41,637 nt of DNA from a virus: positions 1 through 41,637 of IMG/VR virus record IMGVR_UViG_3300035698_009435, one strand, 5' to 3'. The notes under the pieces were generated by a model. It was not told the DNA's origin, searched no databases, and saw only the letters and a list, made by a program, of their open reading frames with translations. This document shows, in pieces, positions 20,465 to 21,088 of the stretch; the stretch's first letter is position 1; every line of letters begins with the position of its first letter. The position numbers were made by a program, and so were the translations under genes.

Positions 20465-20906
20465 AAAAGGATTAAAACCAGTTTCAGAGGCTCGGAACCC
20501 AAAAAATGTAACTGAGATTATAAAAATGAAAGATACTGGAGCAACAGATAAACAAATAGCAGACCATATTGGTGTTACTCGATCGAGTGTTACTCGAACT
20601 CTTGGTAAATACTTTATCCCAGGTAAAACACTTGAAGAATGGAGAGAGAAGGAAAATGATGCCTATACTTTCTTAAGACAAAAGATGCTAGGAATAATAG
20701 ATAAAAAATTAGATGATCCAGAACAGGTAAAAAAGACAACCATTGATAAAATGGCGTGGGCAGCAGGATCTTTACAAGCACAGGAGCGATTAAATAAAGG
20801 AGAAGCTACTACTATTGTAGAAAAACAACAAACAGTTATTACAGATATCTTAAAATCAAGAGCTGCAAGAACTGTTATTGATGCTGAATTTAAGGAAACT
20901 GAATAA
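20457..20906 (+). CDS. Small terminase subunit
   Basis: A protein of 149 aa. An N-terminal helix-turn-helix (residues about 18-50, DKQIADHIGVTRSSVTRTL) should bind the packaging site. A central helical part suits ring assembly, and the C-terminus is acidic. Position shortly before the ATPase subunit supports the role. The pac site may lie within this gene, as in P22, but I cannot locate it. The stop overlaps the next gene (TAATG). Confidence 0.75.
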   Translation: MAKKGLKPVSEARNPKNVTEIIKMKDTGATDKQIADHIGVTRSSVTRTLGKYFIPGKTLEEWREKENDAYTFLRQKMLGIIDKKLDDPEQVKKTTIDKMAWAAGSLQAQERLNKGEATTIVEKQQTVITDILKSRAARTVIDAEFKETE

Positions 20907-21088
20907 TGGAAAAAATACTAAATAAAATACTAATGTTTTTTAACGGAGATGTTGTAGATGCCATAAGATGGCTAAAAGAACCTAAACCTGCACTGGAAGG
21001 GCTATCTCCTTTGGAGTGGGAAGAAAAGAATGATACAGTAGAAGTATTAAAACTAATTAATAGTTTAGTTCAGGGAGTTTATAGTTAA
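20906..21088 (+). CDS. Stand-alone DUF2384 (Xre/MbcA/ParS antitoxin-type) domain protein
   Basis: A protein of 60 aa matching the toxin-binding domain of Xre/MbcA/ParS antitoxins: FNGDVVDAIRWLKEPKPALE, GLSPLEW, and a C-terminal VLKLINSLVQGVYS. In type II systems this domain neutralises RES toxins, which deplete NAD+. Here it lacks the usual N-terminal DNA-binding part and no RES toxin is nearby. It is coupled to both terminase genes (TAATG upstream, 1-nt gap downstream). It could block a host toxin, or have been adopted as a packaging accessory. Confidence 0.75.
   Translation: MEKILNKILMFFNGDVVDAIRWLKEPKPALEGLSPLEWEEKNDTVEVLKLINSLVQGVYS

Follow-up and report, generated by a model that had tools for sequence, protein, structure and literature searches.

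A free-standing DUF2384 antitoxin-type domain encoded between the terminase genes of a phage

RES NADases accompany antitoxins with a DUF2384 domain across bacteria, and the purpose of these pairs is argued over. The virus record IMGVR_UViG_3300035698_009435, analysed here over its positions 1 to 41,637 (the window, 41,637 nucleotides), raises the question of what the toxin-binding half of such an antitoxin might do when it is encoded alone, between the two terminase subunits of a tailed phage. A sequence-only reading had proposed either the neutralisation of a host RES-type toxin or a role as packaging subunit.

Gene, reading frame and domain identity

The record is self-closing through a 127-bp terminal direct repeat, which gives a circular genome of 41.5 kb, and is therefore probably complete. 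Its GC content is 32%, and it is organised in two divergent arms, an early arm on the left (minus strand) and a late arm on the right (plus strand). The relevant features of the late arm are:

20457..20906, plus strand: probable small terminase subunit (TerS), 149 aa, with an N-terminal HTH
20906..21088, plus strand: free-standing DUF2384 (Xre_MbcA_ParS_C) mini-protein (P0001), 60 aa, MEKILNKILMFFNGDVVDAIRWLKEPKPALEGLSPLEWEEKNDTVEVLKLINSLVQGVYS, assigned by Pfam, an antitoxin-only HMM and AlphaFold2/Foldseek
21071..21085, plus strand: C-terminal tail QGVYS of the mini-protein, matching the end of RES-cognate antitoxins in alignments
21090..22658, plus strand: large terminase subunit (TerL), 522 aa, phrog_2 (8e-28), with tblastn matches to annotated TerL proteins (e.g. 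MW202879, 31%)
22643..22882, plus strand: zinc-ribbon-like protein, weakly Lar-like, 79 aa, between TerL and portal; Pfam scores for Lar (17.2 bits) and Zn_Ribbon_YjdM (18 bits) both under the cut-off
22885..24990, plus strand: P22-type portal protein, PF16510 (3e-76), phrog_156
25143..25973, plus strand: probable scaffold protein, inferred from its location between portal and major capsid protein and its acidic composition
25989..27008, plus strand: major capsid protein, PF13252 (2e-40), phrog_334 (2e-57)

The TerS assignment is based on a Pfam HTH_23 match slightly under the cut-off, on weak matches to the PHROG TerS families phrog_309 and phrog_2538, and on the position of the gene directly 5' of the mini-protein gene and TerL. 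In addition, the window encodes a number of proteins outside this block. A member of the S-adenosylmethionine lyase family (16755-17138, minus strand; PF23780, 43.8 bits) is likely an anti-restriction protein, and an RNA ligase (1677-2252, minus strand; PF09414), an RtcB-type tRNA ligase (8971-10188, minus strand; phrog_1075, 1e-124) and a tRNA-Pro(TGG) gene (8889-8965) possibly form a tRNA-repair set. The early arm also carries a trypsin-like serine protease (10481-11131, minus strand; PF13365, 71 bits) and, apart from the other structural genes, two related repeat-rich proteins (13419-14639 and 11134-11979, both minus strand) which have phrog_7713 and phrog_923 in common.

The 60-aa frame described by the sequence-only reading was confirmed: it starts with ATG and occupies exactly positions 20906-21088 of the plus strand. 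The TerS stop codon (20904-20906) shares bases with its start codon (TAATG), and its own stop codon (21086-21088) is separated by a single base from the TerL ATG at position 21090. SD-like sequences are located 5' of the mini-protein start (AAGGA) and 5' of the TerL start (AGGGAG), and codon usage matches that of the late genes in the mini-protein frame only (+0.25 versus -0.20 to -1.0 in the other five frames). No terminator-like site was reported on the plus strand between TerS and portal, where promoter-like sites are close to shuffle level.

The domain assignment is based on several profiles. PF09722 matches the mini-protein with 26 bits against a cut-off of 24.5, a narrow margin with an alignment confined to profile positions 6-30. 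The NCBIfam Xre/ParS antitoxin model aligns residues 3-60 colinearly with positions 55-112 of its 112 positions and thus up to the C-terminus; the score of 26.6 bits lies under the cut-off of 90, which is set for the full-length model. With a profile built solely from bacterial antitoxins, residues 2-60 score 39.6 bits, while the best of 20,000 shuffles reaches 12.2, and none of the other open reading frames of the window scores near this value. The mini-protein begins at the DUF2384 boundary, and the N-terminal HTH DNA-binding half is absent.

The predicted fold agrees with the profiles. AlphaFold2 gave a model with a pLDDT of 88.2 and a minimum at the tail from a 19-row alignment which included antitoxins, so that sequence match and fold test are not independent of each other; this model superseded one obtained from the single sequence (pLDDT 65, zero fold matches). 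When it was compared with the whole PDB by Foldseek, the first 12 of 14 matches were RES-family antitoxins, among them VPA0769, P. putida Xre, NatR, MbcA and ParS (TM 0.5-0.81 on the query), with probabilities of up to 1.00 and E-values of 0.07-1.3, which are modest because the protein is tiny. The likeness to MbcA that the earlier reading had put forward as a structural check is thus borne out, with the stated dependence on the input alignment. A profile search of the PDB sequences agreed with the antitoxin matches of Foldseek; ankyrin-repeat matches in the same search were rejected as a short repeated motif, every copy of which had E > 1 in the alignments shown. Judged by profiles and predicted fold, 20906-21088 is a complete free-standing DUF2384 domain which consists of the toxin-binding half only, as had been proposed. 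The proposed lack of a RES toxin also held, as Pfam gave zero PF08808 matches anywhere in the phage record, and neither a RES nor an ADP-ribosyltransferase partner was found among the phage proteins scanned.

Relatives in bacteria and phages

The closest link to toxin biology is the C-terminal end of the mini-protein. Identity to cognate RES antitoxins amounts to 37-41%, and the alignment is end-to-end both for a Shewanella plasmid antitoxin (38%), the adjacent gene of which is annotated as 'RES family NAD+ phosphorylase', and for a Kosakonia antitoxin accompanied by RES (38-39%). The mini-protein ends with ..LINSLVQGVYS and RES-adjacent antitoxins with ..LINRLMHGVYM or ..LITRLEHGVYS, the final four residues GVYS being identical in several cognate RES antitoxins. 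In NatR-NatT, the C-terminal helix of the antitoxin reaches into the NAD-binding active site of the toxin (PMC11535050), and the same mode has been stated in general terms for other RES-Xre systems (PMC12457610).

The DUF2384 family is carried by 130 of the 398 Pseudomonadota genomes sampled. Bacterial DUF2384 open frames (150 listed) have a median length of 155 aa and include five of at most 85 aa; no RES neighbour was present beside the three short genes inspected, i.e. two of these five and another one. A search of IMG/VR with a DNA pattern of the domain core gave 22 loci, about 19 of which have the domain, roughly half of these as free-standing mini-proteins. Mini-proteins were thus more frequent in the viral than in the bacterial sample, a comparison which is indicative only, as the samples were drawn by different methods. 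At one locus (L144), a RES gene adjoins a full-length antitoxin, and the whole-record search of the remaining pattern loci for RES gave one match, distant from the DUF2384 gene of that record (L134). Four isolate-derived virus records of 8-12 kb (L127, L130, L132, L133) contain frames of 110-147 aa with a C-terminal DUF2384 domain and a GVY tail and no RES gene; at least three of them have zot-like and secretin-like genes and are apparently filamentous phages. Two candidates were rejected: L091, a chance occurrence of 'DAIRWLKEP' within a TerL, and MT836610, a plasmid-like contig from a phage collection that encodes ParA and Mob and no packaging proteins. Single-protein scans of IMG/VR gave no close relative of the window's mini-protein or TerL, and DUF2384 was absent near TerL in 80 loci of TerL relatives with about 30% identity and in three annotated spring phages.

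In a tree of 42 domains, the window's mini-protein groups with those of L145, L128, L135 and L147 (support 97/92); the same grouping was obtained without the most divergent rows (91/87) and in a wider set (97/85). These trees rest on about 65 columns, and an alternative in which the mini-protein groups with GVYS-type RES antitoxins was not rejected (p-AU 0.07-0.14), so this clade is best regarded as supported, not proven. The wider tree also places the RES-linked gp26 of Stenotrophomonas phage S1 in this group, together with a relative from bacteria, and the clade is therefore not purely free-standing. All four sister mini-proteins are encoded in the head-packaging block, in phages of unrelated types: in L145 in the order TerS, TerL, portal, a 68-aa protein, mini-protein, scaffold and capsid, and in phages of the L128/L135/L147 type in the order TerS, a 60-aa protein, a protein of about 100 aa, mini-protein, further genes, portal, scaffold and capsid. 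A whole-record search revealed no RES gene in any clade record (L145, L128, L135, L147 and the window). Among the mini-proteins outside the clade, that of L140 is encoded a few genes before TerL, and those of L137, L138, L141 and L146 lie outside packaging blocks as far as visible.

The L128/L135/L147 type represents a podovirus genus for which a portal scan gave 13 loci (portal identity 83-100%). The mini-protein gene is present at the same place in all eight loci whose upstream sequence exceeds about 4.5 kb and also in L135, the contig of which ends short of the portal gene, and hence in 9/9 loci long enough, the other five portal-scan loci ending too soon to tell. In this genus it is thus part of the syntenic core, located between TerS and portal, and one of the few small genes of this interval found in all nine loci; most of the others come and go. 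Its divergence is somewhat below that of TerS, and dN/dS is mostly <0.3 where dS can be estimated, most pairs being saturated, which suggests purifying selection. The GVYS tail is not kept in the mini-proteins of this genus.

Candidate functions

The function that we favour, at a probability a little below even and judging from sequence comparison, is that of a phage antitoxin mimic directed against a RES-type host toxin. As a product of the late packaging operon, the mini-protein would be translated in coupling with TerS and TerL; its small helical domain would dock on a host NAD-consuming RES-type enzyme of the ADP-ribosyltransferase fold, with the C-terminal tail ..QGVYS pushed into the RES active site and host NAD preserved until the virions are packaged. 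It would be purely inhibitory, without promoter regulation, because the DNA-binding half is absent. Coupled translation, RES binding, RES inhibition and a benefit for infection are all properties that we infer for the protein. Precedents are AdfB, a phage antitoxin mimic acting on DarT (PMC11481870), and Nip, the target of which is the NADase domain of SpbK, an NADase triggered by a portal protein (PMC11984713). Further points counted in its favour are the end-to-end homology to the RES-adjacent antitoxins of Shewanella and Kosakonia, the GVYS identity together with the antitoxin-like AlphaFold2 fold, the RES gene adjoining S1 gp26, a full-length relative of the sister mini-proteins, and the commonness of DUF2384-bearing genomes among Pseudomonadota. 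The antitoxin mimic is ranked first because, to our knowledge, the only established job of the DUF2384 domain is the binding of RES-type NAD-consuming toxins, because the end of RES antitoxins is kept, and because SAM lyase, RNA ligase and RtcB are further genes of this phage with a likely counter-defence role. Against it, we know of no RES system that is a demonstrated phage defence, and PADLOC has no model matching a RES toxin or RES antitoxin. Moreover, deletion of natT left the sensitivity to more than 50 phages unchanged (PMC11535050), the podovirus mini-proteins are without the GVYS tail, their core-gene status is unlike that of most accessory counter-defence genes, and the window's gene is located in the late block, away from the early takeover genes.

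While the RES-cognate tail favours an inhibitor of RES toxins, the recurrent place in the packaging block and the core status in the podovirus genus favour a packaging subunit. The protein would then be a domesticated accessory of packaging or head assembly, a small protein-binding adaptor working with TerS, TerL or portal with no toxin involved, which we consider possible and somewhat less probable than the antitoxin mimic. The close succession of the three frames, which overlap or nearly touch, the grouping of mini-proteins from the same block of unrelated phages and the lack of RES genes across the clade records are consistent with such a role, and conservation of a core gene near TerS within one genus, where most neighbouring small genes come and go and dN/dS is low, is as expected of a packaging or assembly accessory. 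However, the slot of the gene within the block varies, the TerL relatives examined are without it near TerL, the window's protein retains the tail of RES antitoxins, and the DUF2384 fold is not known to serve in packaging. The argument from location is further weakened because the packaging block is an ordinary insertion site for unrelated small genes, as illustrated by the HNH gene between TerS and TerL of Paracoccus phage KLEP18-1.

A further notion is that of a passenger, i.e. a moron or captured antitoxin fragment at a permissive TerS/TerL site with no packaging- or RES-specific role. The patchy distribution, with TerL relatives that do not have the gene, the free-standing DUF2384 genes found elsewhere without RES partner, and the presence of a second small accessory-looking gene between TerL and portal (22643-22882, the weakly Lar-like zinc-ribbon protein) are in line with this notion, which is nevertheless unlikely given the intact domain with its good start, SD-like site and codon usage, the presence of clade members in this block in unrelated phages, and the purifying selection suggested for the podovirus genus. 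Slightly less likely still is an inhibitor of a non-RES ADP-ribosyltransferase-fold enzyme of host or phage, a family of which Pfam found no member among the phage proteins scanned, or a modulator of the TerS HTH mimicking a split Xre antitoxin, as the gene of the mini-protein overlaps that of TerS, an HTH protein, and the pair resembles the two halves of such an antitoxin.

A more general proposal, to be taken as tentative and about as doubtful as the packaging accessory, is that of an uncatalogued phage family which consists of the toxin-binding domain of an antitoxin alone and was domesticated as a component of the head-packaging module in tailed phages of several unrelated kinds, where it may act with terminase or portal or guard packaging against a late-triggered RES NADase. 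If the RES-guarding version is true, RES toxins would become a phage-defence class; if the domain is a packaging accessory, this would be a case of an antitoxin domain put to use in virion assembly. A phage with the antidote half alone raises the question of whether RES toxins are anti-phage agents. In both cases, this small family of phage proteins, which PHROGs does not contain, now has a fold, a location and a few candidate partners.

Comparison with known systems

The DUF2384 domain itself and phage inhibitors of the kind proposed here are already known (PMC11481870, PMC11984713). The view that a free-standing domain of this size would be new in this position stood only in part, since such domains occur in bacteria (5 of the 150 frames listed) and in other phages, some of them in the packaging block; what remains is that the literature search and PHROGs, which has no family for any mini-protein tested, gave no description of a set of free-standing DUF2384 phage proteins encoded in the packaging block. 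With the antitoxins of the RES-Xre, MbcTA, ParST and NatRT systems (DUF2384, PF09722), the mini-protein shares the complete toxin-binding domain, the fold and the C-terminal end; it differs from them by the missing HTH half, by a genome without RES and by its place in a phage packaging operon. Although no phage association was reported for NatRT homologues (PMC11535050), a phage-borne pair was found here in gp26-gp25 of Stenotrophomonas phage S1 (L148, 5746-7146; NC_011589). S1 gp26 has 48% identity over 44 aa to one sister mini-protein; unlike the mini-protein, however, this pair is a normal toxin-antitoxin module of a full-length antitoxin and a RES toxin near the integrase.

AdfB of ICP1, which acts on DarT (PMC11481870), and Nip of phi3T (PMC11984713) may follow a common logic with the mini-protein, in that a phage protein binds a host NAD-using enzyme and blocks it; they are other proteins with other targets, and their action was shown genetically, whereas the role of the mini-protein is a proposal from sequence and model. 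The HNH gene of KLEP18-1 has the location between TerS and TerL in common with the mini-protein gene and belongs to an unrelated protein family. The ParS fragment in complex with ParT (6d0h, 72 aa) is likewise a short DUF2384 polypeptide and is seen bound to a RES-fold toxin; it is a piece of a cellular antitoxin beside its own toxin, whereas the mini-protein is the product of a phage gene.
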